64,000 bases of DNA from Saccharopolyspora soli. Lineage in GTDB: Bacteria > Actinomycetota > Actinomycetes > Mycobacteriales > Pseudonocardiaceae. The stretch spans positions 62,001 through 126,000 of the forward strand of contig NZ_JALBWV010000014.1 in the NCBI RefSeq assembly GCF_022678645.1, read 5' to 3'. Below, piece after piece: positions 5,257 through 44,016 of this stretch. Numbering within the stretch: the first letter of the stretch is position 1; each line of letters opens with the position of its first letter. Under the pieces are notes generated by a model. That model saw only the letters and a list, made by a program, of their open reading frames with translations. It made no database searches and was not told where the DNA came from. A program made the position numbers and the translations under genes.

Positions 5257-5385
5257 GCAGCCCTGTGTCAACCCCAGTAGTCCTCAACCGCACCTCAGGG
5301 GACCGCGACGCAAACCAGCCACAAGAAACCACGCAACAGGAGATTGGGCTGGACGCAACCACCACTGTAAATCGCGGAGAAGCGG
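5253..5385 (+). repeat. Dispersed repeat R1, copy A
   Basis: This 133-bp stretch begins exactly at the ATG that overlaps the alpha-subunit stop codon. It matches 9553-9685 and 39922-40055 at roughly 80-85 percent by eye. The first ~31 codons share one frame in all copies (MSSPVS, later GDR and ETT/ETA). The 3' end carries a ribosome-binding-like AATCGCGGAGA. Here it forms the N-terminus of the beta subunit. Confidence 0.8.
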
Positions 5386-7053: not shown

Positions 7054-7087
7054 CGGCGTGCCGCGTCACGCCGACGAGGAGGTAACC

Positions 7088-7285
7088 ATGCTGAAGCTGA
7101 CGGCGAACCTGGAGATGTGCCAGGGCTACGCCAATTGCGTTGTGGCCGCCGATGATGCGTTCGACATCGATGATGACGGCCTAGTCGTGCTGTTGAAGCA
7201 CGAGGTCCCGGAGGAGGAGCGGGCCAGGTTGGAAGCAGCGGTGCGGACGTGTCCGGTTTCGGCGCTGTCGATCGGAGATCGATGA
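7088..7285 (+). CDS. [3Fe-4S] ferredoxin
   Basis: This 65-residue protein has Cys11 and Cys17 in CQGYANC and Cys55 in CPVSAL, the three-cysteine pattern of actinobacterial [3Fe-4S] ferredoxins. The acidic middle (AFDIDDDGLVV) is typical. It should carry electrons from the reductase encoded next to the Rieske centre. The ATG follows GAGGAGGTAACC, the strongest ribosome binding site in the operon. The counterpart at 45239-45436 has the same length and cysteine spacing. Confidence 0.92.
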   Translation: MLKLTANLEMCQGYANCVVAADDAFDIDDDGLVVLLKHEVPEEERARLEAAVRTCPVSALSIGDR

Positions 7286-8508
7286 GAACCGTGATCGTGG
7301 GTTCTTCGGTCGGCGGGGTGCGCACCGCGCAGGCGCTGCGCGGTGCCGGGTACGACGGCGATGTCGTGCTCGTCGGCCAGGAACGCGTTCTGCCGTACGA
7401 CAAGCCACCGTTGTCCAAGTCGCTGTTGGCTGGCACCAACGATCGAGCTGGCATCACGCTGCTCTCCGAGAGCGCAGCGGCCGAAGCCGGTATCCGGTTG
7501 GAGCTGGGATGTGCCGCGACCCGGCTGGACCTCGACGGTAGTCGCGTCGAACTGGCGGACGGTCGGCGCCTGGAGTTCGACGACGTGGTGATCGCGACCG
7601 GGGCACGAGCGCGCCCGTCCCCGTGGGGGCGGCCGCCCGGCCTGCACGTGTTGCGCACCCTGGACGACGCCGAGGCACTACGCGCGGATCTTCGGCGAGG
7701 CGGCCCGCTGGTGGTGATCGGCGCTGGCTTCATCGGGGCGGAAGTTGCCGCTACCGCTCGGGAAATCGGCATCGAGGACGTGTCGATCGTCGACCCGCAG
7801 CCGGTGCCGATGAGCCGCGCGTTGGACCCCGCGGTCGCAGCCAGGTTCGCCGCGCTGCACCGCGAACGCGGTGTCGCCACCCGGTTCGGAGTCGGCGTGC
7901 GGGCCATCGACGAGTCCGGGGGTTCTCTGGTGGTCCGGCTGACCGACGGCTCGGCACTGGCAGCCACCACCGTGGTGGTGGGCATCGGTGCGATACCCGA
8001 CGTCGAGTGGCTTCGCTCAAGCGGTCTGCGGATCGACGACGGGCTGGTTTGCGATCAGTACAGCCGGGCCCTCGACGCACCACATGTCCACGGCGTTGGC
8101 GACGTCGCGCGTTGGTTCCACCCAGGACACGGCAGGTTGGTGCGCGTCGAGCACTGGACGAACGCTGTGGAGCAGGCGGCATGCGTGGCGCACAACATCA
8201 CGCAGTCGAACAACCCGCGTGTGCACGCGCCGGTGGAATACGTCTGGAGTGACCAGTACGACTGGAAGTTCCAGTTGGCAGGTCGAACCGGCAACGGGCT
8301 CGCAGCGCACTTCGTCGCTGGCGCGGACCCGCGGAGCTTTGCCGTGCTGTACGCCGACTCCGATGGCAGGCTCGCCGGAGCGGCGACCATCAACTGGCCG
8401 CGCGCGCTCGTCGCCTGCCGAAGGGCCCTGCACCGGGATGCGCACCTCGACGACGTCAGGAGCGCAGTGGCGCCCACCACGCATCCGGGAGCACCGATCG
8501 CCCGTTGA
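7282..8508 (+). CDS. FAD-dependent ferredoxin reductase
   Basis: This 408-residue flavoprotein belongs to the oxygenase-coupled NAD(H) ferredoxin reductase family (BphA4-like). It has an FAD-binding VIVGSSVGG start, a YDKPPLSK segment, an ATG motif near residue 100, a second Rossmann motif VIGAGFIGAEVAA for NADH, and VHGVGDVA near the flavin. It passes electrons from NADH to the ferredoxin encoded just upstream, whose stop it overlaps. The reductase at 44016-45242 has the same length. It ends this six-gene translationally coupled run. Confidence 0.92.
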   Translation: MRTVIVGSSVGGVRTAQALRGAGYDGDVVLVGQERVLPYDKPPLSKSLLAGTNDRAGITLLSESAAAEAGIRLELGCAATRLDLDGSRVELADGRRLEFDDVVIATGARARPSPWGRPPGLHVLRTLDDAEALRADLRRGGPLVVIGAGFIGAEVAATAREIGIEDVSIVDPQPVPMSRALDPAVAARFAALHRERGVATRFGVGVRAIDESGGSLVVRLTDGSALAATTVVVGIGAIPDVEWLRSSGLRIDDGLVCDQYSRALDAPHVHGVGDVARWFHPGHGRLVRVEHWTNAVEQAACVAHNITQSNNPRVHAPVEYVWSDQYDWKFQLAGRTGNGLAAHFVAGADPRSFAVLYADSDGRLAGAATINWPRALVACRRALHRDAHLDDVRSAVAPTTHPGAPIAR

Positions 8509-21878: not shown

Positions 21879-22523
21879 TCAGGGGAGAGTTTGGGTGACG
21901 CGCCACAACCGGCGAGGTAGTTCGCCTTCTTCGAAGGGGTGGACCTCGTCGAGGTGCCAGCCGGTGGCGAGCTGGTCGACGAGGTCGCGGTCGAAGAAGT
22001 GCACCGCGAAGCCGCCGTGCTCGTAGATGTCGTCACCACGGGCGATTCCCGCTCCGTAGTGGGCATCGCCGGTGTGCCGTACGGTGTAGACGAGACTGCC
22101 GCCGGGCCGCAGGACTCGCCTGATCTCGCCGACGAGCGCGTGAATGTCGCTTGTGGACAGGGACATGCAAAGCAGCATGTGCGCGAAGACCGCGTCAACG
22201 CTCTCATCAGGTAGCGGGAGCGGGTTTCGCACGTCGTGAACCGTGGTCGTGATCCGGTCGGCGATGCCGTCGTGCTCGGCGGCGCGGGCCAGTTGCTCCA
22301 GTCCGCTGGGGCTGAAATCGACGGCGTGCACGGTGAAACCGGCTCGGGCGAAGAGCAAGGAGTCCCGCCCGTGGCCCGCGCCGAGTTCGAGCACGATGCT
22401 GGCGCCTCGGCCGCGGAAGAGCTCAGCGGCGTAGCGCGCCGGTTCCGACGGCATCTCGCCGTACATGTGGGGATGGCGCTGGTAGACGGACTGCCAATGC
22501 GCCTGTTGGGCGTTCCCGGCCAT
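21879..22523 (-). CDS. Class I SAM-dependent methyltransferase
   Basis: This 214-residue methyltransferase has motif I in VLELGAGHGRDSLLFA, an acidic motif II end (VHAVDFSP), and post-motif steps DAVFAHMLLCM and LRPGGSLVYTVRH. This resembles the tellurite-resistance TehB or ubiquinone-type methyltransferase branch. The acceptor is unknown. It converges on the kinase gene with a 13-bp gap and shows no operon partner. Confidence 0.85.
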   Translation of the reverse strand: MAGNAQQAHWQSVYQRHPHMYGEMPSEPARYAAELFRGRGASIVLELGAGHGRDSLLFARAGFTVHAVDFSPSGLEQLARAAEHDGIADRITTTVHDVRNPLPLPDESVDAVFAHMLLCMSLSTSDIHALVGEIRRVLRPGGSLVYTVRHTGDAHYGAGIARGDDIYEHGGFAVHFFDRDLVDQLATGWHLDEVHPFEEGELPRRLWRVTQTLP

Positions 22524-22587
22524 CGGTCAAGCAGTCTAGCTGCCCGAACGCGGAGATCGAGGGGCCGCTGTGGTGGGCAACACCCCG

Positions 22588-22619
22588 CGCGCCGGGGCCG
22601 AGCAGTCGGGCCCGGCGCG
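22588..22619. terminator. Stem-loop after the luciferase-like gene
   Basis: CGCGCCGGG and CCCGGCGCG form a perfect 9-bp stem with a 14-nt loop, directly after the stop of the minus-strand gene at 22620. Confidence 0.65.
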
Positions 22620-23609
22620 TCAAGCCGTCTTCAGACCCCGGACCTCGGCGAGGAGTTCGAGCGACCGCAGCCAGGCGGCGCGATCGGTGGCCGCGGACAC
22701 CACGATCAGTTCGTCGGCCTGGGCCTGCTTGGCGAAGCGGTCCAGGTAGTCGTCCACCTCGGCCGGGGTGCCGACCGCGGTGTACCTGGTCATCTGCAGA
22801 ACCTGCTGTCCGGCTGGAGAGGCGAGGATCGCGTCCGCTTCCTCCCGCGTGAACTCCCGGCCCTGACCCAGCATCCGGGTCACCCGGTAACGCTTCGCGG
22901 CCTCGAACTGCTCCTCGGCGTACTGGGCGGTGTCCGCCGCGATCACGTTGACCCCGGCGATCACGTACGGCTCGGCGAGCTGCGCGGACGGCTGGAACTC
23001 GCGCCGGTAGAGCGCGGTGGCCGCTTCGAGCGCGTCCGGCGCGAAGTGGGAGGCGAAGGCGTACGGCAGGCCGAGCAACGCGGCGAGCTTGGCGCCGAAC
23101 ATCGACGAACCGAGGATGTACAGCGGCACGTTGGTGCCCTCGCCTGGCGTCGCGTTGACCCCGGCGATCCGGGTCTCGCCCGACAGATAACCCTGCAGTT
23201 CCAACACGTCCTGCGGGAAGGCGTCGGCCGATGTCGGATCGCGGCGCAGCGCGCGCATGGTCTTCTGATCGCTGCCGGGCGCCCGCCCCAGACCGAGGTC
23301 GATCCGTCCCGGATACAGCGTTTCGAGGGTGCCGAACTGCTCGGCGATGGTCAGCGGCGCGTGGTTGGGCAGCATCACCCCGCCCGCGCCGAGGCGGATG
23401 CTGCGGGTGTGCGCGGCCACATGCCCGATCAGCACGCTGGTGGCCGAAGACGCGATCGTGGGCATGTTGTGGTGCTCGGCGTACCAGATCCGCTGGTAAC
23501 CCCACTCCTCGGCGTGCTTTGCCAGGTCGACGCTGGCGGCGAAGCTGTCAGCCGCTGTCTCCCCCGAGCCGATGTGTGCCAGATCGAGGATGGAGAGAGC
23601 AACAGCCAC
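22620..23609 (-). CDS. Luciferase-like flavin monooxygenase (MsnO8 type)
   Basis: This 329-residue TIM-barrel protein belongs to the bacterial luciferase-like family. It has [12 protein letters not shown] at the start, [10 protein letters not shown], then [13 protein letters not shown] and [14 protein letters not shown]. These mark the subfamily often annotated MsnO8-like. It would use reduced FMN (or F420) to oxidise an unknown substrate. Not linked to a neighbour by overlap. Confidence 0.88.
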
Positions 23610-23915: not shown

Positions 23916-24227
23916 TCACCAGATGTTGCCGCCGCCGTTGCCGCCGATGCCGCCGCCGCCGTAACCGTTGCCGCCGAAGCCGTTGCCGCCGGGGCCACCG
24001 TGACCGGCCGGGGCACGTGAGCCGCCGTCGCCGCCGTCACCACCGTCACCGCCACCGGTGCCGCCACCGGTGCCGCCGCCGTCGCCGCCGTCGCCACCAT
24101 TGATCTCGAAGTCGCCCCAGATCGGGCCAGCGAGCGGCCATGTCGTCAGAACAGTTCGCGCGGGCAGGAACTCCACCCGCTGGTCATCGAGCTCCGTGGA
24201 GCTCAACGGCTGAGTCGAATCGAACAC
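23916..24227 (-). CDS. Gly-rich mini-protein with conserved leader core (paralogue 1)
   Basis: This 103-residue protein has a Ser/Thr-rich start, then DQRVEFLPARTV at residues 15-26, TTWPLAGPIWGDFEI, and a tail of GGDGG/GGTGG and GGNGFGGNGYGG repeats ending NIW. The 12-residue core is identical, at the same position, in the protein at 26564-26944, while the tails differ in detail. The GTG start is fixed by AAGGAGGACCAA; the longer frame reaching 24401 has no such site. No signal peptide or membrane segment is seen. Conserved leader plus variable low-complexity tail is the layout of a precursor peptide. The role is unknown. Confidence 0.75.
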   Translation of the reverse strand: MFDSTQPLSSTELDDQRVEFLPARTVLTTWPLAGPIWGDFEINGGDGGDGGGTGGGTGGGDGGDGGDGGSRAPAGHGGPGGNGFGGNGYGGGGIGGNGGGNIW

Positions 24228-24917
24228 TTGGTCCTCCTTCGCCGATTGGGCTCGGAACCGACGCGGAGATCGATGCCTAAGCAAGGTCATAAACGCCCCC
24301 AGATCCCCATTCCAACGCCCCAGATTCGTTGGCATCAGCACGCAGCCTAGGTCGACTTGGAAACGCGCGCAGCACGAAAGTGTCAGCATGCCGACCGTCA
24401 TCGTGAACCACTAACAAAACCCCAGCTCAGCGTCGAGTTGGTGATATTCCAGCAGGCGCTTGCGCGTTCAACTACGCGCCGCAGCCGTTGATGATAATCA
24501 ACTGCCGCTGGTAGCCGCCGCGGATCGACATCAATGCGACATCGCACCGGTGTTTGCGATACCCGGTCAGCGCCTTTTGTGATCGTACTGGTCGCCAGTG
24601 GATGCCGTTGTTCCGCGGTTTCCGGAATAACCGGCGCGACCTGGCCGAACATTGTTTCCAACCGGCTGGACGGCATTGATCCGTTTCCGCTGATTTTCAA
24701 ACCCGCGCCTATTCAACCAATTCGTCGGCGGGGTCGCCGCCGACCGGCGAAGCGGGACGCGGTGGCTCCGGAACCGGCGGCGAGTCCTGCCGAGCGGATC
24801 AACCCGGCGATGCGGAGCACGACACAAGCCGATCAATACCACGTGTTCTGGTTCTCCTGGCCTAAAATCCTCGGCTGTTTAGCCTAGTGAAATTACTCTG
24901 AGTAAGGAGTTCTCTCG
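24228..24917. other. Non-coding, lower-GC stretch between divergent Gly-rich genes
   Basis: About 690 bp without a convincing gene. GC content drops visibly between 24400 and 24700. Frames on both strands have poor actinomycete codon usage and no ribosome binding sites. It probably holds the promoters of the two divergent Gly-rich genes. No clear operator was found. Confidence 0.5.
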
Positions 24918-26189
24918 ATGAGTCATCGTCCCTGCTGGGCTGCTCCCGCCGAAGGTTTGGGCGCGGCGAACTCCCAGGCCGTCTCCGGCGGCAGCCAGGC
25001 TTCGGGGGTCGGACGCCATCGCTGGTGGCCGCTGTCCGGCGTCGGCATGCTCGCCGTCACCTTCGGCCTCGTCTCGGTCCAGCCAGCCGCCGCCGCCCCG
25101 GATACCTGCACGCGCACCGACAACGGTTCCGGGGACAACATCGTCTGCAGTCGAGGTCTCCCAGCCGGACAAACGCTCAACGGCACGGACGGGAACGACC
25201 GGATCATCTTGAGCGGGTCGGTGGCGGGCGCCATCAACACCGGTGCCGGGGACGACACGGTGATCGTGACCGGTCGCAACGGTGGCAATGGCGGCGCTGG
25301 TGGAAACGGCCATCTCGACGGCTGGAGCGGCATCAACGGCGACGGGAAGACCAGTGCCAGTGCGCGGGCTGGCGGTAGCGCCGGTACCGGTGGTCATGGC
25401 GGCAGCGGCAGTGCCGGGGTGGAGAGCACCGGCACGATCGACACCGGTGCCGGAGACGACGCGATCACCATCATCGGCGGCAGGGGAGGCAACGGCGGCA
25501 GAGGAGGCAATGCCGGTCCGGGCAGTCCCGATCCAGCTGACGCCCGTGGCGGCGACGGCGGCAACGCGGGCAGTGGCGGCGTTGGCAACCTCGGCCAGAT
25601 CTCAGCGGGTGACGGCAACAACAAGATCACCGTCACCGGAGGCGACAACGGCACGGCCGGGAACGGCGGCCGGGGCGCCGACGGGGGAGCGAACACTCGC
25701 AGCGGCGACGGCGGTAATGGCGGCAACGGCGGCGGGGGCGTTTTGTACGAGAACGGCCGCGGCGGTGCGGGCAACGGCGAGACCGGCACCATCATCACGA
25801 CGGGTAACGACATGATCACCGTGCAGGGTGGCAAGGGCGGCCTCGGCGGCGACGGCGGCAGTGGCGGCGGCAACAGCACGATGCTCAGCCAGGACGGCGG
25901 CCGTGCTAACGAAGGCACCGGCGGCACGGGCGGCACCGGTGGCAGTGGTGGGTTCGCCAACGTCGGCAAGATCGTCGCCATGAGCGGCGCCGCGGCCACA
26001 GTGGACACCTTCAACGGCGTCGGCGGCGATGGTGGCGACGGCGGCTACGGCGGCGACGGAAGCACCCGCGGTGTCGGCGGCCACCAGGGGCTCAACGCCA
26101 CTGCGAACACGGGCGGCGTTGGCGGAGTTGGTGGTGCCGGAGGGCACATCGTCTCCGAAGGAGTCGAGGCGACTCGGCGCGATTACTGA
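24918..26189 (+). CDS. Secreted modular Gly-rich (PGRS/RTX-like) repeat protein
   Basis: This 423-residue protein has a long signal peptide ending in VSVQPAAAA (about residue 60), so it is exported. The mature part repeats a module: a beta-like core (INTGAGDDTVIVT at 106-118, IDTGAGDDAITII at 174-186, ISAGDGNNKITVT at 228-240, IITTGNDMITVQ at 292-303, a decayed one at 352-364), each followed by GGNGG-type glycine runs. The cores recall half of an RTX calcium motif, and the glycine runs recall mycobacterial PE_PGRS tails. AAGGAG precedes the ATG. It lies between two Gly-rich mini-proteins and upstream of a peptidase. A cell-surface or matrix role is a guess. Confidence 0.8.
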   Translation: MSHRPCWAAPAEGLGAANSQAVSGGSQASGVGRHRWWPLSGVGMLAVTFGLVSVQPAAAAPDTCTRTDNGSGDNIVCSRGLPAGQTLNGTDGNDRIILSGSVAGAINTGAGDDTVIVTGRNGGNGGAGGNGHLDGWSGINGDGKTSASARAGGSAGTGGHGGSGSAGVESTGTIDTGAGDDAITIIGGRGGNGGRGGNAGPGSPDPADARGGDGGNAGSGGVGNLGQISAGDGNNKITVTGGDNGTAGNGGRGADGGANTRSGDGGNGGNGGGGVLYENGRGGAGNGETGTIITTGNDMITVQGGKGGLGGDGGSGGGNSTMLSQDGGRANEGTGGTGGTGGSGGFANVGKIVAMSGAAATVDTFNGVGGDGGDGGYGGDGSTRGVGGHQGLNATANTGGVGGVGGAGGHIVSEGVEATRRDY

Positions 26190-26563
26190 CGAGAGTGGAC
26201 GGAGCGCGGCCGAGGTAGCCCGATGTGATCACCGCGACCTCGGGCTGGTGTCGGGCGCGTGCGCAGGATTCGTGGGGATCGCTTGGGTTTTCGCCAGGCG
26301 ATCCGGCCCTCCTAGTACACAATGGACATTGCTTCCGCAACGACCCCCGGAATTGATGTCATGTCCCGTTACCACGTTCTCGAATTCCCCACAAACGGCG
26401 GAATGCCGAGCACACCCCTGGGTGATTCGAGGTGCGGTGGGTTCCCCGCGCTCCTATCTTCTGCCCCGAGTGCCAGGAAAACGTCGCGGGAGCGCGAACC
26501 AGGGGGGCGGCGTTGTTCCGGGTCTTCCCGGTGAATTCGGTTCAATTTGCTAAGGAGCAGCAG
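26190..26563. other. Intergenic stretch upstream of the second mini-protein
   Basis: These 374 bp contain no supported gene. The last 80 bp are less GC-rich and probably hold the promoter of the mini-protein gene. No repeat or hairpin stands out. Confidence 0.4.
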
Positions 26564-26944
26564 ATGCCAAAAAGGTCTCGGTCGCTGAGCGTTGCCGAGC
26601 TGGCTGACCAGCGCGTGGAGTTCTTGCCAGCGCGAACCGTGATGTCGACGATGTGGCTCCCCTGGAACGGCGACGACGTGGTCGTGCTGCACGACACCCC
26701 GAACTGGGACGACCACCCCCACCCGGCTGACCACCACGACGTGACCACCGGGGACATCACCGGCGGCAGCGGCGGCACCGGCGGCGGCTCGGGCGGCGGC
26801 CAGGGTGGCGGCAACGGCGGCAATGGCGGCGACGGTGGTGATGGTGGCGATGGCGGCAACGGCGGCGATGGCGGTGATGGGATAGGCGGCAACGGCATCG
26901 GTGGCGCCGGTATCGGTGGAGACGGCGGCGGAACCGTCCACTGA
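26564..26944 (+). CDS. Gly-rich mini-protein with conserved leader core (paralogue 2)
   Basis: This 126-residue protein starts with a basic stretch (MPKRSRSLSVAELA), then DQRVEFLPARTV at residues 15-26, the same core and position as in the protein at 23916-24227. An Asp/His-rich linker follows (HDTPNWDDHPHPADHHD), then a 65-residue tail of GGxGG units with regularly spaced Asp and Asn. The ATG has AAGGAGCAGCAG upstream. The M50/PqqD gene follows 235 bp downstream on the same strand. The leader could be the recognition element for that protein's PqqD-like domain. No homologous characterised peptide is known to me. Confidence 0.78.
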   Translation: MPKRSRSLSVAELADQRVEFLPARTVMSTMWLPWNGDDVVVLHDTPNWDDHPHPADHHDVTTGDITGGSGGTGGGSGGGQGGGNGGNGGDGGDGGDGGNGGDGGDGIGGNGIGGAGIGGDGGGTVH

Positions 26945-27093
26945 TCTCACGTGACAGGCGTTCACGCCGAGACAGTGGCATGGTGCTGACCTACTACCGA
27001 TAAATGCCGAAGGCACGTCTTCGAATCCGCTTGCGCGGGTAGCGCGAACCCGCGGCGGCGCTGCTTCGAAGGCGAAGAGCTGAAAGTGCACTG

Positions 27094-27146
27094 CCGGTCG
27101 GCGGGGCGGCGTTCTTCTGACGGGGAATGCCCGGCCCGCCGACCGG
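27094..27146 (+). promoter_or_regulatory. Stem-loop in the leader of the M50 peptidase gene
   Basis: CCGGTCGGCGGG and CCCGCCGACCGG pair perfectly over 12 bp around a 29-nt loop, ending 33 bp before the peptidase start. It could end transcription from the mini-protein gene or limit read-through into the peptidase. A GAACCCGCGGCGG block at 27046-27058 resembles part of repeat R2. Confidence 0.5.
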
Positions 27147-27179
27147 GCCTGTTTCATGCGAGTACTCCAGGGAGTCGTC

Positions 27180-28514
27180 ATGGTCGCCACTCCGGAGGCC
27201 GAGACGCCCTCGGCCGACGAGGAAGTCGCGGATCTCCCGGTGCCCGCCCTCGTCGCGGGCAGCGAGCTGATCGGCCAGTACCAGGGTTCGGGGCACCGCG
27301 AACCGCCCTACCTGGCCCGCCGTGCCGATGGTCAGATCCTGCAGCTCTCGCACCTGCTGTACCTGGTCGCCGCTGGCCTCGACGGACAGCGCACCTACCA
27401 GCAGCTCGCAGCGCGCCTCAGCGACGAGTGGGGCCGCGACATCACCGCCGGGCAGGTGTCCTTCCTCGTCGAGAACAGGTTGCGCCGGGCGGGTTTGGTG
27501 GCGGCCGACCCGGCGGCCGACCAGCCCGCGCCAGCCTTCCCAAAGGGCCGCGATCGGTTGTTGGCGCTGAAGTTCCGCGTCGCGTTGGTGCCGGAACGCG
27601 TCGTCTGGGCGATCGCCGGGTTCTTCCAGCCGCTGTACTGGCCGTTGGTGATGGTCATCGCATTGGCGTGCTTCGCCGCCGCAGACATCTGGTTGGTCAT
27701 GCGCATCGGCATGGGCCAGGTCCTCTCCGGCGCGCAGGCGCTGATCAACCAGCCCGAGCAGCTTCTGCTGGTCATCGGTGTGCTGGCGCTCGCCGGGATG
27801 TTCCACGAGTTCGGCCACGTCGCCGCCTGCCGTTACGGCGGCGCCCGTCCTGGGGTGATGGGCCTGGGCATCTACCTGGTGTGGCCCGCGATGTACAGCA
27901 CCGTCACCGAGTCCTACCGGCTCAGCCGTGGTGGCAGGCTGCGCACCGATCTCGGCGGCATCTACTTCAACGCGCTGGCCATCCTGGTCATGATCGTGCT
28001 CTACGCGCAGACCGGGCTCCCCTGGTTGCTGGTCGCGCTGCTGGCGTGGCAGATCACCACAGTCTGGCAGTTCCTGCCTTCGATTCGACTGGACGGCTAC
28101 TACATCCTCAGCGATCTGGTCGGGGTTCCCGACCTGTTTGACCGGATGGGGCCCATGCTGCGCAGCATGATCCCAGGCCGCCCGCTGCACCCTCGCGTTC
28201 GCGAGCTCAAGCCCTGGGCACGGCGGGTGATCGCGGTCTGGGTCGTGTTGGTGATCCCCTTCCTGGCGTACTGGCTCATCGGATTCCTCGTCCTCGCGCC
28301 GTACGTCCTGCCTTCGATGTGGCAGGCGCTGCTGCACCAGGGCGAGGGTGTGGGCAGCGCGGCGCAGGCCGGGGATGTCGCCGCGACGTTGGTCGCCATC
28401 CTGCGGATCTTCCTGCTGGCGCTGCCGTGGGCGGGTGTCACCCTGATCCTCTTCTACCTGGGCCGCAGTTTCGTGCGGAAACTCCGGGCCTGGCGCCGCC
28501 GCGCGAAAAGCTGA
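27180..28514 (+). CDS. Membrane M50 zinc metallopeptidase with PqqD-like N-terminal domain
   Basis: This 444-residue protein has a PqqD-like winged-helix region at about 44-108 (GQILQLSHLLYLV, DGQRTYQQLAARL, FLVENRLRRAGLV). Six or more membrane segments follow, with the zinc site HEFGH at 209-213 and a second ligand region LDGYYILSD at 304-312. This is the architecture of YydH/peptide zinc-metalloprotease proteins. PqqD-like domains bind leader peptides in RiPP pathways. The Gly-rich proteins upstream have a conserved leader-like core, so this enzyme may recognise and cut them during export. GGGAG supports the ATG at 27180 over 27156. Confidence 0.88.
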   Translation: MVATPEAETPSADEEVADLPVPALVAGSELIGQYQGSGHREPPYLARRADGQILQLSHLLYLVAAGLDGQRTYQQLAARLSDEWGRDITAGQVSFLVENRLRRAGLVAADPAADQPAPAFPKGRDRLLALKFRVALVPERVVWAIAGFFQPLYWPLVMVIALACFAAADIWLVMRIGMGQVLSGAQALINQPEQLLLVIGVLALAGMFHEFGHVAACRYGGARPGVMGLGIYLVWPAMYSTVTESYRLSRGGRLRTDLGGIYFNALAILVMIVLYAQTGLPWLLVALLAWQITTVWQFLPSIRLDGYYILSDLVGVPDLFDRMGPMLRSMIPGRPLHPRVRELKPWARRVIAVWVVLVIPFLAYWLIGFLVLAPYVLPSMWQALLHQGEGVGSAAQAGDVAATLVAILRIFLLALPWAGVTLILFYLGRSFVRKLRAWRRRAKS

Positions 28515-28971
28515 CGCCGCGTCGGATCGGTGCTGCTCGGTGCTGGCGAGCCGGTCCAGGAGGCGGCGCCAGCATCCTTGCAGACCGCGGCGCGGGCCAG
28601 CTGCCGACGTTCGGCCAAGGTGGTGGCGAGGTCGGCGCGGCCGGTGGCAGGCGAGCAGACCGGCATGGCCGTGGCAGAGGGTGGGCGCGAATGCCTGTCG
28701 TTCGACTTCTCGCGCGTTGATCATCTGCGGCGTTTTTGGCGCGATACCTTTCGGTGGCTTGGGGCTTCGAGTGGAAAGCAATCCCAAGTGGACTCCTCGG
28801 ATGTCCGTTGGGCGCGGACTCCGAGCAGCGGTAGGCACCGCGACACATGACGTAGTCGTGGTGGTCGCGAGGGGCGTTCTGGTTGCGACATCGATCCGAT
28901 CCCCCGGTCCTCGGACGGGCTTACGTTCAGACCTGAGCGTGATCTGGATCCTGACCGAGGGAGGTCCGTGC
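28515..28971. other. Gap after the peptidase, possible decayed gene on the minus strand
   Basis: No intact gene is supported in these 457 bp. On the minus strand 28659-28676 encodes CHGHAG inside APTLCHGHAGLLA, which resembles the C-terminal zinc motif of LanC-type cyclases. Continuation would need a frame change to reach a segment reading GRADLATTLAERRQLARA. This is at best a remnant. Confidence 0.3.
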
Positions 28972-29934
28972 ATGCTCCCGTCCACCGTGCCGAGCCGCAC
29001 AGCTTCGGACTTCGAAGCCGATCTGGTCGTCGTGGACCGTCGTGACGAAGCGACGGGCGTCGTCGGAGTCGGCTTCGAGCTCCCGACCGGCGGCGAGCTG
29101 CCCGACTGGGCGCCCGGAGCCCACGTCGACGTCCTGCTGCCCGGCGGCCTGACCCGCCAGTACTCGCTGTGCGGCGACCCGGCGGACCGGCAGCGGTGGC
29201 GGATAGCCGTGCTCCGGGAACCCGACGGGCGCGGCGGTTCCAGGTGGATCGCCGAGGAGTTGGCGGTCGGGATGGCACTGCGGGTGCGCGGGCCGCGCAA
29301 CAACTTCCCACTGCTGCCAGCCCAGCGGTACGTCTTCATCGCCGGTGGCATCGGGATCACACCGCTGCTGCCCATGATCCGAGCAGTGGCGGCATCCGGC
29401 GCCGACTGGGTGCTGCACTACGGCGGTCGCACCCGCCGGTCGATGGCCTTCCTCGAACCGCTGGCCGAGTACGCGGACCGGGTGCGCATCCACCCGCAGG
29501 ACGAGGTCGGCCTGCTCGACCTGGACAGCGTGCTCGACAGGCATCCGAAGTCGCTCGTCTACTGCTGCGGGCCGACCGGCCTGATCGACGCGGTCCAACA
29601 GCGCTGCCCGGAGCCGGGAGCGCTGCATGTCGAGCGCTTCACCGCGGCTGCTTCTTCCGGCGAGAACACCGAATTCGAGGTCGTCTGCGACCGCTCGGGG
29701 ATCAGCGCCGTGGTCACTCCGGACCTGACGATCCTCGAAGCGCTTGAGAACGCGGGGCTCGACGTCCTCTCGTCGTGCACCGAAGGCATCTGCGGCACGT
29801 GCGAGACGGCGGTGCTGGCGGGCGAGCCGGACCACCGGGACTCCCTGCTCACCGACGAGGAGCAGGCGGCGGGCGACACGATGATGATCTGCGTCTCCCG
29901 CTGCCGAGGTGCCAGGCTGGTGCTGGACCTCTGA
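28972..29934 (+). CDS. Phthalate-dioxygenase-reductase-type oxidoreductase (FMN, [2Fe-2S])
   Basis: This 320-residue protein combines a flavin/NAD reductase module with a C-terminal plant-type ferredoxin. The flavin-binding RQYSLCGDP, the NAD region GGIGITPLLPMIR and CCGPTGLIDAV are in order. The ferredoxin ligands are in CTEGICGTCETAVLAG plus a Cys near the end (ICVSRC). It is the single-protein electron donor of two-component (class IA) Rieske oxygenases, but no oxygenase lies next to it. The ATG follows GAGGGAGG. It may serve an oxygenase elsewhere or demethylate-type reactions. Confidence 0.9.
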   Translation: MLPSTVPSRTASDFEADLVVVDRRDEATGVVGVGFELPTGGELPDWAPGAHVDVLLPGGLTRQYSLCGDPADRQRWRIAVLREPDGRGGSRWIAEELAVGMALRVRGPRNNFPLLPAQRYVFIAGGIGITPLLPMIRAVAASGADWVLHYGGRTRRSMAFLEPLAEYADRVRIHPQDEVGLLDLDSVLDRHPKSLVYCCGPTGLIDAVQQRCPEPGALHVERFTAAASSGENTEFEVVCDRSGISAVVTPDLTILEALENAGLDVLSSCTEGICGTCETAVLAGEPDHRDSLLTDEEQAAGDTMMICVSRCRGARLVLDL

Positions 29935-30037
29935 CCCGCGGGCTCCGCCACGCGGAGGGGGTCGATAGGCCCTTGCGCTGGGGTAGCTGACTGCCTGACG
30001 TTGGCTTGACGTCGACTCGTTGGCGGAGGTGAGGGCA

Positions 30038-30979
30038 GTGCGCGCAGTGGTCCAGCACGAGTTCGGCCCGCCAGAGGTCCTCAAGGTGGAGGAGGTCGAC
30101 GCACCGGAACCGATTCCGACCGAGATCCAGGTGCGGGTGCACGCGGCAGGCGTGAACCCGGTCGACTTCAAGACGCGGGTGGGGGAGGGGGTTGCGGCCG
30201 TGCTGGGTGACCCGCCGCTGCGCCTCGGTTGGGACGTTTCCGGCGTGGTCTCCGAAGTCGGCTTCGGCGTCACCCGCTTCTCGGTGGGCGATGAGGTGTT
30301 CGGCATGCCGTGGTTCCCGCGTCAGGCGGGTGCCTACGCCGAGTTCGTCACGGCACCGGCCCGCGAGTTCGCCGCCAAGCCCGAGCGGCTTTCCCACACC
30401 GAGGCGGGAGCGTTGCCGCTGGCCGGTCTGACCGCGTGGCAACTGGTGGTTGACACGATCCGGCTGGAGCCCGGCCAACGCATCCTGATCCACGGCGCGG
30501 CAGGCGGCGTCGGACATCTGGCCGTCCAGGTGGCCAAGGCGCGCGGCGGGGTGGTGATCGGAACGGCACGGGCGGACCAGGCGAGCTTCCTGCACGGGCT
30601 GGGTGTCGATGAGGTCATCGACTACCGGCGCACGGCCTTCGACGAGGTCGTGTCCGATCTGGACGCGGTCATCGACTTTCCCGGGGCGTACGGGCAGCGG
30701 TCGCTTTCGGTGCTGCGGCCCGGTGGCATCCTCGTTTCGGTGCCCAGCGGCGCGCACCAGGACGTGCTCGACTTGGCGGCGCAGACCGGGCGGCGGGCGG
30801 CCAGTTTCCTGGTGGAGCCCGATCAGGTCGGCTTGGCCGGGCTCGCCGACCTGATCGCGACCGGCAAGCTCGAGGTGGAGGTGGCCCGGGTCTTCGACCT
30901 GGCGGACGTCGTCGCGGCACATCGGCTCGCCGAGAGCGGTCCAGGACGGGGCAAGGTCGTTCTCCAGGTGAATTCCTGA
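30038..30979 (+). CDS. NADP-dependent quinone oxidoreductase-like (zeta-crystallin type)
   Basis: This 313-residue medium-chain reductase lacks zinc-binding cysteines and has HGAAGGVGHLAVQVA as its cofactor motif. The N-terminal domain reads QVRVHAAGVNPVDFKTR. It would use NADPH to reduce quinones or enones. The GTG at 30038 is placed by GGAGGTGAGG; the TTG at 30020 is less likely. Stands alone between two transcription units. Confidence 0.88.
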   Translation: MRAVVQHEFGPPEVLKVEEVDAPEPIPTEIQVRVHAAGVNPVDFKTRVGEGVAAVLGDPPLRLGWDVSGVVSEVGFGVTRFSVGDEVFGMPWFPRQAGAYAEFVTAPAREFAAKPERLSHTEAGALPLAGLTAWQLVVDTIRLEPGQRILIHGAAGGVGHLAVQVAKARGGVVIGTARADQASFLHGLGVDEVIDYRRTAFDEVVSDLDAVIDFPGAYGQRSLSVLRPGGILVSVPSGAHQDVLDLAAQTGRRAASFLVEPDQVGLAGLADLIATGKLEVEVARVFDLADVVAAHRLAESGPGRGKVVLQVNS

Positions 30980-37910: not shown

Positions 37911-39410
37911 GTGACAGACGCGCTCCTAGCCAGCCTCGACCAAGTGGTGCAGTTGCAGACGATCGCGATGATGCTGCTCGGCATCGCGATCGGCTTCCTG
38001 GTCGGCATCCTGCCCGGACTCGGCGGCGCCGTGACGTTGGCGCTGATGTTGCCGTTCACCTTCAACATGGACCCGATCCCGGCCTTCGCGCTGCTGCTGG
38101 GGATGTACGTGGTCACCGCGACGACCGGCGACCTGACCTCGATCCTCTTCGGGGTCCCCGGCGAGGCGACATCCGCGGCCGTGGTGCTCGACGGCTACCC
38201 GCTGACCCGGCGTGGCCAGGCCGGACGGGCGTTGGGGGCGGCGCTGGCCAGCTCCGCGGTCGGTGCCATCTTCGGCGCCGTGGTGCTGGCCCTGTCGGTG
38301 CCGATCGTCCGGCCCCTGGTGCTACAACTCGGTCCGCCGGAGTTCTTCGGCCTCGCGCTGCTGGCCCTGACCTTCGTGGTGATCCTCGCCGGTCGCGACC
38401 TGTACAAGGGCCTGATCATGGCCTGCCTCGGCCTGCTGGTCGCGCTGGTGGGCATGGACCCGGTCGACGGCGTGCCGCGCTACACCTTCGGCGAGATCTA
38501 CCTGTGGGACGGCATCGACATCATCCCGGTGGTGGTCGGGCTCTTCGGCGGCGCCGAGGTGCTGCAGCTGATGCTGTCCAAGACCAGCGTTGCGCAGCAC
38601 ACCGCGCCGAGCGACGTCCACCGCGCCGGAACGGGCGCGCGCGAGGCGCTGCGGCACTGGAGCCTGGTGCTGCGCTCCAGCGCGATCGGCACCGGCGTCG
38701 GCCTGGTACCGGGGCTGGGCGGCTCGGTGGCGCAGTTCATCGCCTACGGCCACGCCAAGCAGACTTCCAAGCACCCCGAGGAATTCGGCAACGGCTCCAT
38801 CGAGGGCGTGATCGCCGCCAGCGCCACCAACAACGCCAAGGACTCCGGCTCGCTGATCCCCACCATCGCCTTCGGCATCCCCGGCTCGGCGGGCAGCGCG
38901 GTGTTGCTCAGCGCCTTCCTGATCGTCGGGCTCGACCCCGGCTTCGAGATGCTCACCAACGACCTCGACGTGACCTTCTCGATGGTGTGGATCACCGTGG
39001 CGGCCACGCTGATCTCCACCGCGCTGGCCTTCGCGGTGCTGCGACCGCTGACCAAGCTGGTGCACATCCCCGGCCAGACTTTGGTGCCGTTCCTGCTGCT
39101 GTTCCTCTGCCTCGGCGCGTACAGCTCCACCAACAGCTTCGGCGACGTGCTGGTGATGCTGGCCTTCGGCGCTCTCGGCGTGGCCTGCATCCACTTCAAC
39201 TGGCCGAGGGTTCCGCTGCTGCTGGGCATCGTGCTCGGCGACATCGCGGAGCGCTACTTCTTCCTGTCCTACTCGCTTTTCGGCTGGAGTTGGTTGACCC
39301 GGCCGATCTTCCTCGGCATCGCGGTCCTCATCGTCCTCGCGCTCGGCCTGCCGTGGTGGCGCGAACGCCGCAACCGGCGGCGTGAACTGAGCAAGGTGGC
39401 CAGCAAATGA
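37911..39410 (+). CDS. Tripartite tricarboxylate transporter, large membrane subunit (TctA)
   Basis: This 499-residue permease has about 11-12 membrane segments and TctA signatures: GILPGLGGAVTLALMLPFTF, GVPGEATSAAVVLDGYPLTRRGQAGRAL and GVGLVPGLGGSVAQF. It imports carboxylates with a periplasmic-type binding protein. The GTG follows GGAGGAAC; the longer frame from 37845 has no ribosome binding site. Order is A-B-C here, with overlaps. Nearby dioxygenases make an aromatic carboxylate a plausible substrate. Confidence 0.93.
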   Translation: MTDALLASLDQVVQLQTIAMMLLGIAIGFLVGILPGLGGAVTLALMLPFTFNMDPIPAFALLLGMYVVTATTGDLTSILFGVPGEATSAAVVLDGYPLTRRGQAGRALGAALASSAVGAIFGAVVLALSVPIVRPLVLQLGPPEFFGLALLALTFVVILAGRDLYKGLIMACLGLLVALVGMDPVDGVPRYTFGEIYLWDGIDIIPVVVGLFGGAEVLQLMLSKTSVAQHTAPSDVHRAGTGAREALRHWSLVLRSSAIGTGVGLVPGLGGSVAQFIAYGHAKQTSKHPEEFGNGSIEGVIAASATNNAKDSGSLIPTIAFGIPGSAGSAVLLSAFLIVGLDPGFEMLTNDLDVTFSMVWITVAATLISTALAFAVLRPLTKLVHIPGQTLVPFLLLFLCLGAYSSTNSFGDVLVMLAFGALGVACIHFNWPRVPLLLGIVLGDIAERYFFLSYSLFGWSWLTRPIFLGIAVLIVLALGLPWWRERRNRRRELSKVASK

Positions 39411-39925
39411 CCCAGGCACAGCCAACTTCCGCACTCCGCAGCGATACGAGGAAGACCGATCTGGTCATCACGGCCGTGCTGGTGCTGCTGTTCGGCGCCG
39501 CGCTGCTGGCCACCACGGCTTGGCCGTTCCGCACCGCGCTGTTCCCGACCATCGTCAGCGGCGCCGCGCTGCTGCTGAGCCTGGCGCACCTGGCGACGCT
39601 GCTGTTGCGCCGCCGCCGCGCGGAACCGGCGGAGCAACAGCGGGAGGCCGCGGCCGACGGGGACGTCGACTACGTCTTCGCCACCGCTGGTCGACGGGCG
39701 TGGACGGCGGCACTGGCCTGGGCCGCGGCCTTCTTCGTCGCGCTCTACGTGGTGGGACTGCTCATCGCCGCGCCGCTCTTCTCGTTCTGCTACCTGCGTT
39801 TCGCGGCACGCCGGTCGTGGCTGTTCAGCCTGGTCTACGCGGCCGTGGTGCTGGCCGCGATCTACCTGGCCTTCGAGTTCGTGCTGACCATTCCGATCCC
39901 CGCCGCAGTCTGGGAGCAGTCGTGA
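39407..39925 (+). CDS. Tripartite tricarboxylate transporter, small membrane subunit (TctB)
   Basis: This 172-residue subunit has four hydrophobic segments split by a charged loop (RRRRAEPAEQQ). It has the WPFRTALFPTIVSGAALL motif near residue 40. It overlaps TctA by four bases. Its stop codon lies inside the first bases of repeat R1 copy C. TctB is essential for transport in known systems. Confidence 0.9.
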   Translation: MTQAQPTSALRSDTRKTDLVITAVLVLLFGAALLATTAWPFRTALFPTIVSGAALLLSLAHLATLLLRRRRAEPAEQQREAAADGDVDYVFATAGRRAWTAALAWAAAFFVALYVVGLLIAAPLFSFCYLRFAARRSWLFSLVYAAVVLAAIYLAFEFVLTIPIPAAVWEQS

Positions 39926-40055
39926 GTAGTCCTGTATCAACCCCAGTTCTCCTCAACCGCGCCTCAGGGGACCGTGAAGCAAGCCAGCCACAAGAAACCG
40001 CGAAACGAGAGATTCGTGCTGGACGCGACCACCACTGTGAATCGCGGAGAGGCGG
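39922..40055 (+). repeat. Dispersed repeat R1, copy C
   Basis: This 134-bp copy begins GTGAGTAGTCCTGTATCAAC, overlapping the TctB stop, and ends GCGGAGAGGCGG right before the TctC start. The repeat thus supplies both the stop of one gene and the ribosome binding site of the next. Confidence 0.8.
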
Positions 40056-40059
40056 GACA

Positions 40060-41073
40060 GTGATCCGCCGGACCCTCGCCGCATTCGCCGCGGTCACGTT
40101 GCTCGCGGGCTGCTCGGTGTTCGACCGGGCCGACGCCGACACCGCCCAAGGCCCGCTGGCCGGGCAGACCATCGAGCTGATCGTGCCGTTCGAGCCCGGT
40201 GGCGGTTATGACCTCTACGCCCGCCAGCTGGCTCCGGAACTCGGCAAGAAGCTGCACGCCGAAGTGGTGGTGATCAACAAGCCCGGTGCTGGCGGACTGC
40301 TGGCCACCAACGACGTGTGGAAGTCCAAACCGGACGGCACCAAGATCACCCTGCTGAACACCGTCGGCCACCTGGGCAGCGCGCTCGCTGGCGCGCAGGG
40401 GGTCCGCTACCGGGCGCAGGACTTCTCCTACATCGGCCGGATCAGCGGCGAGCCGGACCTGACGATGGCCGCCGCCAGCAGCCCGTACGACACGTTGCAG
40501 GACCTCTACAACGCCCACGAGCAGATCCGGGCGGTGGCCACCGGACCGGGCTCCAACGAGTACATCGACGCGGTGGTGGTCAATGCGGCGCTGAAGCTGG
40601 ACTCCAAGGTCGTGACCGGATTCGTCGGCAGCGGCGAGGCTTGGCTCGCGGTGATGTCCGGATACGCGACGTGCCACAGCCGCTCGCTGTCCAGCCAGCT
40701 GCCAGCGGTCAACAGCGGCGATGCGAAGCCGCTGCTGATCATCGGTGACCAGCCGGTTCCGGAACTGCCCGGCGTGCCGACGCTGAGTTCGCTGGCCAAC
40801 GACGCGAACCGGAACATCATCGAGGACCACGTGCGGCTGATCGCCAGCGGACGCTCGCTGGCCGGACCGCCGGGCATGGACCCGGCGGTGCTTGAGGCGC
40901 TGCGGACGGCCTTCCGAGAAGTGGTGACCGACCCGCGCTACATCGCGGACGCCAAGACGCAGAAGCGCCCGGTCGACTTCGCCAGCGGCGAGGACATCGA
41001 CCGGCTCGTCGACGAAGTGATGCACAGCTCCCCGGAGTACGTGGCCCTACTGCGCGAAGCGTTCGGCGGCTGA
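40060..41073 (+). CDS. Tripartite tricarboxylate transporter, binding lipoprotein (TctC)
   Basis: This 337-residue solute-binding lipoprotein has a short signal (IRRTLAAFAAVTLLAGC) with Cys18 as the lipid anchor. It has TctC/Bug-type motifs: ELIVPFEPGGGYDLYARQLA and NKPGAGGL. Bug-type proteins bind carboxylates through main-chain contacts in these loops. The GTG follows GGAGAGGCGG contributed by repeat R1. In-frame translation through R1 from 39922 is possible but would hide the signal peptide. Confidence 0.9.
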   Translation: MIRRTLAAFAAVTLLAGCSVFDRADADTAQGPLAGQTIELIVPFEPGGGYDLYARQLAPELGKKLHAEVVVINKPGAGGLLATNDVWKSKPDGTKITLLNTVGHLGSALAGAQGVRYRAQDFSYIGRISGEPDLTMAAASSPYDTLQDLYNAHEQIRAVATGPGSNEYIDAVVVNAALKLDSKVVTGFVGSGEAWLAVMSGYATCHSRSLSSQLPAVNSGDAKPLLIIGDQPVPELPGVPTLSSLANDANRNIIEDHVRLIASGRSLAGPPGMDPAVLEALRTAFREVVTDPRYIADAKTQKRPVDFASGEDIDRLVDEVMHSSPEYVALLREAFGG

Positions 41074-42076: not shown

Positions 42077-42604
42077 TCACACGAAGGTGGAGAGGTTTTT
42101 GGCCAGGAGTACGGATTGGTCCAGGAGGAGTTCTCGGCGGTAGACCTGCCAGGTGTCGCCGACTTGGCGGAGTCGGTCCCGGCGGCGGCCCACCAGGAAG
42201 TCCGTCTCGTCCGCGACTCTGTTGCGGTACACCAGGAATCGGGAGCTCACCGCCACCTCGGGCAGCGCCACCTCGGTGAGCCGGACGTTGGTGACCAGGT
42301 GGGAGACTCGGGACACCGGTTCCTCCGCCCAATGCTTGCCCGTCATCAGCTGATCGACTCGCAGCCGCACGGTGTCCTTGCTCTCGTCGAACCAGCAGAT
42401 GTCCGCGCCCGCTCGGGTCTGCTCCTGCTCGTCCGGCTGGTCGAAGGAGACGTTCATCCGGATCGGCATCGAGTACTGGAAGTCCTCGGCCAGCAGGTCC
42501 AGCCACTCGTGGTAGCGCCGCTGGTCGAGCAGATCTGCCTCCGCGTAGAGGAAATCCGCGACTTCGGCGGTCAGCAGCAACCGCTGCTGTCGTTCGTCGG
42601 TCAT
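42077..42604 (-). CDS. Rieske dioxygenase beta subunit (second system)
   Basis: This 175-residue beta subunit has the NTF2-like core from its start: DFLYAEADLLDQRRYHEWLDLLAEDF and YSMPIRMNV. It has a C-terminal RRELLLDQSVLLAKNLSTF that parallels the first system's ending. AAGGAGGCGTGACG precedes the ATG at 42604. Unlike the first beta subunit it has no R1-derived extension, which supports the view that the extension is foreign to the fold. It is the last gene of the operon. Confidence 0.9.
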   Translation of the reverse strand: MTDERQQRLLLTAEVADFLYAEADLLDQRRYHEWLDLLAEDFQYSMPIRMNVSFDQPDEQEQTRAGADICWFDESKDTVRLRVDQLMTGKHWAEEPVSRVSHLVTNVRLTEVALPEVAVSSRFLVYRNRVADETDFLVGRRRDRLRQVGDTWQVYRRELLLDQSVLLAKNLSTFV

Positions 42605-42606
42605 CG

Positions 42607-44016
42607 TCACGCCTCCTTCGCAACCGGCTTGGCGCGCTCGTCCTGCTCGGCGAGTTCGGTGAGCTCGGACCAGGGCAGCCCGTCGGTGAATTCGGCCCAC
42701 CGCCGGTAGAACGCGCGAGCGTTCACCTCACCGGCGATCGCGTGGTGCGAGTGCACCGCGCCGTGCAGCTCGCTGGATTGCTCGTCGCCGAGTCCCTGCT
42801 GGTAGTTGTACGGGTAGCGGCGGGCCACCACGCCCCGACTGGCCTCGGTGGCGTAGTCCCAGTTCTCCATGTCGTCCTGCTCGGTCATGCCGCCCGGACC
42901 CGAGTAGCGCATGTAGTAGTGCCGCAGCCAGTCCCGGACGTGCTCCGGGGCGCTCTTGTCCACCAGGTACCAACGCCACACCTCGGTCTCCCACGGTCCG
43001 CGCGGGTGGGAGACCAGGATGGTGCGGGGAAAACCGGCCGAGAAGGACATGTTCGGGAACATCGTGGCCGGACCCCGGCCGCCCAGCGGGCGGCCCTCGG
43101 CGCGCAGTTTCGCCGCGCGGGTCTGCCAGGCGTCGGCGAAGTATTCGGTCAGTTCCGCTTCGGCGAAGTCCGGGTAGGGCAGCTCGTAGTCGAGGTTGTC
43201 GGAGGCGCCGTGCCCGAGCCGGAAGGAGGTCTTCATCCGGCCCCTGGAGAAGCCGCCCTGGTTCTGCTGCTCGCCGTGCCGACGCTTTCCCCTGCCGCCG
43301 GGACCGATGCCGACCGCTTCGACGGAGGCGTGCGTTGACTCGCCGTGGTAGGTGTCGCCGAGGAAGTTCTCCGAGACGAACTTCCAATTCGACTTGATGC
43401 GCCACTTCTGCACGCCGTGGAAGACCTCGGTCCCGGCCTCCGCGCCGTCGAAGGCGTCGGCGAGGTTGTCCAGCCAGAACCGGAAATCGCCGACGTAGTC
43501 GTCGAATTCCGGTGCCTGCGCGTCCCAGCTGGCGAACACCAGGCCCTTGTAGTCCTCGATCTTGGGGGCGCGCACCAGGCCCCACTTCTCCTTCTCCAAC
43601 CGGCCACCGTAGGCGGCGCGGTTGTGCGGCACGCCGTGCAGGTCACCGGGCACCGCGACCAGCGACCCGTCCATCGAGTACGACCAGGCGTGGTACGGGC
43701 AGGTGAACTGCATCGAGTTGCCCGCGTCGTACCGGCAGACCCGCATGCCCCGATGGCGGCACGAGTTCAGCAGCACGTGCACCTCGCCCTTGTCGTCCCG
43801 GGTCAGCAGCACCGGGTCGGCGCCCATCCAGGACGAGAAGAAGTCGCCCGGCTCGGGCACCTGGGTGGCGTGCCCGACGAACAGCCACGCGCGTGGGAAC
43901 AGGTTCTCCAGCTCCGCTTGGTGAATCCGCTCGCTCATGAAGATGTCGCGGCTGATCATCCCGTCGCGGGTGTTCACCATCTCCCGCACGCCGGGGTAGG
44001 AGCGGTCCTTGCCCAT
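42607..44016 (-). CDS. Rieske dioxygenase alpha subunit (second system)
   Basis: This 469-residue catalytic subunit has Rieske ligands Cys86-x-His88 and Cys106-x2-His109 (CPYHAW). The iron site is Asp221, His224 and His229 in SENFLGDTYHGESTH, with EQDDMENW further on. An insertion of about 25 residues rich in Gly, Arg and Gln (around 236-260) distinguishes it from the first alpha subunit. The ATG follows GAGAGGG and overlaps the reductase stop. Its substrate is unknown and probably differs from that of the first system. Confidence 0.93.
   Translation of the reverse strand: MGKDRSYPGVREMVNTRDGMISRDIFMSERIHQAELENLFPRAWLFVGHATQVPEPGDFFSSWMGADPVLLTRDDKGEVHVLLNSCRHRGMRVCRYDAGNSMQFTCPYHAWSYSMDGSLVAVPGDLHGVPHNRAAYGGRLEKEKWGLVRAPKIEDYKGLVFASWDAQAPEFDDYVGDFRFWLDNLADAFDGAEAGTEVFHGVQKWRIKSNWKFVSENFLGDTYHGESTHASVEAVGIGPGGRGKRRHGEQQNQGGFSRGRMKTSFRLGHGASDNLDYELPYPDFAEAELTEYFADAWQTRAAKLRAEGRPLGGRGPATMFPNMSFSAGFPRTILVSHPRGPWETEVWRWYLVDKSAPEHVRDWLRHYYMRYSGPGGMTEQDDMENWDYATEASRGVVARRYPYNYQQGLGDEQSSELHGAVHSHHAIAGEVNARAFYRRWAEFTDGLPWSELTELAEQDERAKPVAKEA

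Follow-up and report, generated by a model that had tools for sequence, protein, structure and literature searches.

The locus described here lies in a 64,000-nucleotide stretch of the Saccharopolyspora soli genome (contig NZ_JALBWV010000014.1, positions 62,001 to 126,000), which we call the window. Two genes for small proteins flank a gene for a glycine-rich protein, P0003, and a gene for an M50-like membrane metalloprotease, P0004, lies downstream. The small proteins have the layout of precursors with a leader and a tail. The N-terminal domain of the protease resembles PqqD and the RRE, the recognition element of ribosomally synthesized and post-translationally modified peptides (RiPPs). The features on which we rely are the following, with positions counted from the start of the window.

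23916-24227, minus strand: precursor gene 1, 103 amino acids, GTG start; 64.1 bits with the leader profile
24228-24239, minus strand: AAGGAGGACCAA, resembling a ribosome-binding site, upstream of the GTG of precursor gene 1
24150-24227, minus strand: leader of precursor 1, residues 1-26, its last part being DQRVEFLPARTV
23919-24149, minus strand: variable Gly-rich tail of precursor 1, the presumed product, from the leader/tail comparison of 161 distinct precursors
24918-26189, plus strand: P0003, Gly-rich modular protein, presumed secreted partner; the start could be 25047
26552-26557, plus strand: aaggag, resembling a ribosome-binding site, upstream of the ATG of precursor gene 2
26564-26944, plus strand: precursor gene 2, 126 amino acids, ATG start; 71.1 bits with the leader profile
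26564-26641, plus strand: leader of precursor 2, residues 1-26
27180-28514, plus strand: P0004, putative RRE-M50 membrane metalloprotease, 444 amino acids; alternative start at 27156
27258-27503, plus strand: PqqD/RRE-like domain, about residues 27-108, three strands and three helices in an AlphaFold2 model, with Foldseek matches
27804-27818, plus strand: HEFGH zinc/catalytic motif, residues 209-213
28086-28103, plus strand: RLDGYY, residues 303-308 of the 444-residue reading

The original prediction, made from the sequence of the window, had described an identical core in the two small proteins, a secreted Gly-rich protein between them, and an M50 peptidase with HEFGH and a PqqD-like N-terminal domain. 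This observation was confirmed. Both open reading frames translate as described, with the core DQRVEFLPARTV at residues 15-26 of each; the motif stands at residues 209-213, and the N-terminal domain has a PqqD/RRE-like predicted fold. P0003 is present and contains 32% Gly, and that it is secreted is suggested by an N-terminus that looks signal-like, by eye only. The two precursors end in W and H, respectively. Neither they nor P0003 were assigned to a family in Pfam and NCBIfam at E<=1.

Leader and tail of the precursor family

Between the two window copies, the codons of the 12-residue core differ at 5 of 12 positions and every change is synonymous; the identity of the core is therefore held at the protein level. 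A 33-residue leader query gave matches in 22 of 41 relatives at E<=1. Within the genus, 14 of 22 genomes (the window's included) matched at E<=2e-8, and one genome from another genus, G023, gave 21 matches. The sharing of the core is therefore not due to chance, and the core is part of a leader-like element, as had been predicted. With a leader profile built from 21 rows, 50 of 200 family genomes gave a match at E<=0.1, and in 23 of these the best match had E<=6e-10. The remaining 27 (E 7e-4 to 0.1) were discarded as noise; a few of these weak matches may be real, since G054, G063 and G152 hold other M50 types. The highest leader count among the family genomes was that of G084, with 26 leader matches and 3 M50 matches. 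A scan of named genomes confirmed 102 stretches, and 73 loci were kept. Their hosts are Saccharopolyspora, Pseudonocardia acidicola, P. ammonioxydans, metagenome-assembled genomes (MAGs) of Pseudonocardiales and Pseudonocardiaceae, and one MAG labelled Actinobacteria. The best named matches to the window leader are Saccharopolyspora species.

Among the 161 distinct precursors, mean pairwise identity (400 random pairs) was 65% for leaders, 46% for tails and 29% for tails stripped of Gly. Gly makes up at least 30% of the tail in 136 of the 161. The combined Ser, Thr and Cys content of the tails is low, with a median of about 10%, and two or more Cys occur in only 25 of the 161. The ratio of nonsynonymous to synonymous substitution rates (dN/dS) was about 0.30 for the leader and about 0.46 for the tail among 15 plus-strand precursor sequences, a set in which the window and locus L001 are one gene and the L006 tail looks frameshifted. 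The window genes thus belong to a large family of precursors in which the leader is conserved and the tail varies, being Gly-rich in most.

Two further points concern the tails. A polyglycine-II register was considered and rejected, as it was only modestly above composition: the GGx register reached 17/20 in 13 Saccharopolyspora tails versus 14.8 after shuffling, and the median z was 0.7 in 156 tails. At L006 (genome G005; the same place as L037, S. spinosa), the tail of the precursor at about 1501-1773 becomes Arg-rich, QRRQRRHRWRRR, apparently through a frameshift that is either genuine or an assembly error.

The M50 protease and its association with the leader

H209, E210, H213, D305 and G306 are invariant in 17 aligned M50 proteins. 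RLDGYY is presumably the distal Asp motif of site-2 proteases; together with HExxH and the multi-helix membrane core of the model, it gives P0004 the features of that group. The Pfam M50 score is below threshold (9.8 versus a cut-off of 27.2 bits). The AlphaFold2 model places three strands and three helices at residues 29-101, followed by long helices. With the full model, Foldseek returned PqqD (5sxy) at a probability of 0.97 and a template modelling (TM) score of 0.56 by target, and the lasso RRE TbiB1 (5v1u) at a probability of 0.89; the two lowest E-values were those of channel proteins (probability 0.16-0.18). When the N-terminal domain was folded alone from its single sequence, TbiB1 ranked first and PqqD second. 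A PDB profile search gave a weak match to PqqD (3g2b, E 0.67), ranked below rhodopsin matches to the stretch of membrane helices. The three-stranded sheet, the three helices and the structural match to PqqD agree, with moderate confidence, with an RRE/PqqD-like domain, and we regard a PqqD/RRE fold as predicted for the N-terminus.

M50 proteins of the window type (at least 438 bits) were found in exactly the same 23 of 200 family genomes as the strong leader, the two samples of 200 being taken as identical, with listed genome labels that agree. This co-occurrence accords with the original link between core and protease. Other M50 types (325 bits or less) occur alone in 14 further family genomes. 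Among the 73 named leader loci, 27 contain an M50 homologue, one of which is cut by the contig end. Searching from the protease, we found a small gene with LPxR[TS] within 1.5 kb of all 22 distinct window-type M50 genes.

The association extends beyond the window type. At E<=1e-8, the M50 profiles matched 43 of 296 genomes of the phylum, extending into other families and classes; the match was near full-length in 23 and mainly over the protease core in 20. The small neighbours in other lineages have leaders such as LPEREAL, LPDREEMSL, LPDKEVYS and LPERAVL, generalised here as LPx[RK]xx[LMV][SGTA]. A small gene with the relaxed motif LPx[RK] lies within 1.5 kb of 54 of the 64 M50 genes from loci brought in by the M50 search, versus 5 of 94 controls (large genes with no M50 or leader gene within 4 kb); for the strict motif the counts are 48 of 64 versus 4 of 94. 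For full-length M50 genes, 49 of 61 have a strict-motif neighbour. In nine of the other 12, the neighbour is of the LPDKEV/LPAKEV type and falls outside the regular expression; for the remaining three, L163, L165 and L179, none was found. The extension xx[LMV][SGTA] follows LPx[RK] in 93 of 118 M50-adjacent contexts, loci fetched by leader included, versus 16 of 455 in large genes. All these contrasts are descriptive and do not amount to a blind test, because the motifs were written after loci of those types had been seen and because the genomes, being related, do not count as independent.

A quick tree was built from 70 dereplicated M50 proteins out of 128; on it, the nine leader labels need 13 changes versus a shuffled mean of 40.2, and none of 200 shuffles was as low. 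The clade of type A, the type of the window, has 25 rows and full support (100) in the Shimodaira-Hasegawa-like approximate likelihood ratio test. It comprises 23 rows labelled A and two, L067 and L003, whose leaders the gene caller missed but the profile found. The label given to L176 is an artefact of the regular expression. Ten genomes hold both a window-type and a second type of M50, and LPxR[EK]AL leaders adjoin the second in 10 of 10. Leader type largely follows M50 clade. In distant families of the phylum, tandem precursors directly adjoin the M50 gene. Two Streptomyces plasmids carry relatives, annotated as hypothetical proteins. Outside Actinomycetota the search covered the plasmid collection; among the matches listed from it (20 of 54), the non-actinobacterial ones cover under half of the protein. 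The products in lineages beyond the window type are often not Gly-rich, and their precursors gave only chance-level or sub-cutoff matches in Pfam and NCBIfam.

A secreted partner gene is often present at the locus. A P0003 homologue was found in 14 of 14 leader-bearing genus genomes (E<=2e-8) versus 0 of 8 others, each within 2 kb of a leader gene. In P. acidicola and at a single MAG locus from Pseudonocardiales, the M50 gene is followed by one for a Gly-rich protein with a DUF2807 head-GIN domain; by eye, further MAG loci have a similar gene in this position. In other clades, inspection by eye also showed a secreted protein with AxAxQ and CxxC features that overlaps or follows the M50 at L159, L161, L167 and L188; elsewhere a stretch of this kind forms the C-terminus of the M50. 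No secreted partner gene was seen by eye at L064 and L097. The generalised leader, the products that are often not Gly-rich and the frequent partner gene all go beyond the original prediction.

Neighbouring genes and variant architectures

Neighbouring genes were clustered with a purpose-made gene caller, which starts two window genes too far in, and the clusters were named by eye. Recurrent neighbours in 30 window-type loci were a P0003-like protein (8), a LuxR-like ATPase (9) and a UvrD-like helicase (9); other genes, among them a major facilitator superfamily (MFS) transporter (5), were shared by 5 loci or fewer each. In the 35 loci of other types, the recurrent genes were those for response regulators (10) and an AI-2E-like transporter (6), and 7 of 43 orphan loci held an ATP-binding cassette (ABC) ATPase. 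No RiPP-modifying enzyme was recognised by eye among the clusters present in at least 3 of the 30, at least 3 of the 35 or at least 5 of the 43 orphan loci (18 clusters). The large LuxR-like ATPase regulator (793-897 amino acids, by eye) is that of L044, L048, L050, L051, L052, L059, L074, L077 and L151, which are loci of Pseudonocardiales MAGs and Pseudonocardia.

Some RRE-M50 proteins are longer than that of the window. Proteins of about 730-890 residues with a C-terminal extension are encoded at L142 (4240-6645), L143 (5739-8048), L145, L146, L147, L164, L166, L171, L172, L175 and L176. The adjoining precursor has 210-280 residues, a leader of the LPx[K]EV type and units resembling NVAAPIDAAV. 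Tandem small precursors of the form LPDREEMSLxNANVAAPVNAAVAANVLSDDS... are found at L158-L161 and L174, in distant actinobacterial families; we take their alternating pattern to be reminiscent of amyloid-like repeats. As a contrast, L180 and L189 are daptide-type loci with several LEMQELEAL-like precursors beside the M50, and the annotations of L189 include mpaC, mpaD, mpaM and mpaP.

Farther out in the window, two ring-hydroxylating dioxygenase-like sets with ferredoxin and reductase genes (3850-8508 and 42077-45436) and two gene sets for tripartite tricarboxylate-type transporters (37911-41073 and 49195-52246) were seen by eye.

A proposed maturation route and its alternatives

We think it probable that the locus encodes a maturation system for small proteins, in which the RRE-M50 recognises, cuts and perhaps releases exported proteins that carry the leader as a tag. 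The precursors would be made with a leader of about 26-30 residues, in which LSxxELxxQ is followed by LPARTVMS. The PqqD/RRE-like domain would capture this leader, and the membrane-embedded site-2 core would cut at or just past the small residue (mostly S or G) after LPxRxx[LM]. The tail, Gly/Asp/Asn-rich in the window, would reach the outside with no further modification, passing through the protease or being set free by it, and would join the secreted Gly-rich partner protein, possibly with a role at the surface. We infer binding, cut and release because of the analogy with MpaP, described in PMC10036551 as the RRE-dependent intramembrane peptidase that takes off the daptide leader.

Several observations weigh against this proposal. 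The Gly-rich tails seem, by eye, to have no transmembrane segments, and site-2 proteases usually cut such segments. Cores that lack an M50 neighbour, which the original prediction had named as a threat to the link, do occur locally, with 46 of the 73 named loci having no M50 in the stretch examined; they do not occur genome-wide, as no strong-leader genome listed from the family sample is without a window-type M50. Ten of the 64 M50 genes have no relaxed-motif neighbour, Gly is under 30% in 25 of 161 tails, and type-C leaders are scattered over the tree (6 changes). The genomes compared are also related. Confidence in the AlphaFold2 model is moderate (mean predicted local distance difference test 72, predicted TM score 0.55), chains of the carbamoyltransferase GdmN reach a Foldseek probability of 0.85, and Foldseek gave no match at E<0.001 for the M50 model. 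Covariation as a locator of the leader-binding domain came out negative: over 66 pairs, leader columns shared no more mutual information with the RRE than with the membrane domain of the M50 (one-sided p 0.97-0.99). Finally, within about 3 kb of the locus (21879-23609 and 28939-30979) the window also encodes a methyltransferase, a luciferase-like monooxygenase, a Fer2 reductase and a zinc dehydrogenase. The original interpretation is thus partly supported. That the PqqD-like domain reads the leader agrees with the way leader type largely follows M50 clade, and covariation did not favour that domain.

Tentatively, the proposal could be widened to a sorting route across the phylum. Here LPx[RK]xx[LM][SG] would be an address tag with the RRE as its receptor, the fused protease would be both cutter and export gate, and a partner particular to each lineage might nucleate a surface layer from unmodified structural proteins. 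This partner would be P0003, which is Gly-rich, a lipoprotein with DUF2807 that is likewise Gly-rich, or an exodomain of the AxAxQ/CxxC kind, sometimes fused to the M50.

The closest known system is that of the daptides. As described in PMC10036551, MpaP/DapP (NF041824) likewise combines an N-terminal RRE and a site-2 protease in a single protein, with several short precursor genes adjoining, a leader motif as the presumed recognition site, and hosts that include Actinomycetota. The daptide loci of that paper differ in having modifying enzymes, ABC transporters, an ELExMEAP leader and a C-terminal Thr, where the window has LPARTV and tails that end in W or H. No daptide B, C, D or M genes were recognised by eye in the recurrent clusters of the 30 and 35 loci; a true daptide locus shows its modifying genes and is annotated by name, unlike the relatives on the two Streptomyces plasmids. 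P0004 scores 90.8 bits with NF041824 daptide_HExxH (E 9.6e-26; cut-off 300) and is 28-30% identical to annotated MpaP over 57% of the query. The single daptide row forms a long branch outside on the M50 tree, where its placement is unsure. Membership among daptide proteases was rejected on the score, the modifying genes, the leader and the C-terminal Thr.

Membership in the YydH group, a type that the original prediction had mentioned, was rejected as well. P0004 shares the M50 core with YydH/LiaK (EpeP), a protease thought to cut and export its peptide (PMC10885120), and its score with NF058609 is 47.4 bits, far under the curated cut-off of 225. Unlike YydH/LiaK loci, the 30 and 35 loci have no radical SAM epimerase recognised among their recurrent neighbours. 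The predicted N-terminal fold is like that of PqqD and TbiB1, but here the domain is fused to a membrane protease, and no PQQ (pyrroloquinoline quinone) or lasso genes were recognised among the recurrent neighbours. Mycobacterial PE_PGRS proteins also have surface modules rich in Gly triplets, for which polyglycine-II sandwiches and cleavage of the N-terminal domain are proposed in PMC9436101; the present proteins differ in that the small proteins and P0003 have no Pfam match and the GGx register is modest relative to composition. TmcP, the TMcin protease, is a site-2-clan enzyme that removes a leader in the membrane according to PMC13252029, whose main text does not contain the term 'PqqD'; the system there differs in its precursor with a transmembrane helix, its disulfide enzyme and its ABC transporter. 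Our best reading is that the window encodes an RRE-guided site-2 protease akin to daptide MpaP and belonging to neither the daptide nor the YydH group. Searches of the open-licence literature, supplements excluded, brought up no account of this family of leaders or of an RRE-M50 that acts in the absence of modifying enzymes.

Another explanation is a true RiPP pathway, in which enzymes encoded elsewhere or by lineage-specific neighbours modify the tails and leader removal by the RRE-M50 is just the final step, as with MpaP. The RRE-like fold, the leader/core layout, the several precursors per locus and the distant similarity to daptide_HExxH all fit such a pathway, and orphan precursors elsewhere could meet other enzymes. 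It is also kept alive by the four enzymes near the window genes, whose families are of a kind that can tailor peptides; two of them lie upstream, the methyltransferase (PF13649/PF08241) and the luciferase-like monooxygenase (PF00296), and enzymes from these families are also encoded in daptide loci (PMC10036551, PMC12338566). As 15 other type-A loci contain no match to any of the four, these are probably chance neighbours. With no recurrent modifying gene recognised by eye in the 30, 35 or 43 orphan loci, and with the low Ser, Thr and Cys content of the tails, we find this pathway unlikely.

A less likely explanation still, to which we give little weight, is that the small proteins are not substrates of the M50. 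The leader would mark them for another exporter, or they would act inside the cell; the protease would act on a membrane regulator, and the shared neighbourhood would reflect co-regulation. Site-2 proteases often act in signalling, and the recurrence of regulators (LuxR-like ATPase, response regulators) and of MFS, AI-2E-like and ABC ATPase genes, the last three mostly in close relatives, would suit this explanation, as would the negative covariation test. The occurrence of leader and M50 in the same 23 of 200 genomes speaks against it. Leader type also largely tracks M50 clade though flanking genes differ between lineages, an RRE-like domain reads leaders in solved relatives such as TbiB1, and tandem precursors lie directly beside the M50 in distant families. 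We find it very improbable that the core merely reflects a recent duplication or gene conversion and has no function: many paralogues per genome would fit this, but the 5 of 12 synonymous codon differences already contradict it, and the leader dN/dS of about 0.30 and related motifs in other families of the phylum also speak against it.

If the proposed maturation system is correct, leader recognition of the RiPP type would also serve the maturation of unmodified exported peptides, and one or few proteases would serve many dispersed precursor genes, as in G084. It would offer a testable system for how an RRE passes its substrate to an intramembrane protease. The tag and the RRE-M50 together give a handle for annotating many small hypothetical proteins in actinobacteria. 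Their pairing in the soil actinobacterial genomes searched points to a way of trimming and releasing peptides that has not been described before.

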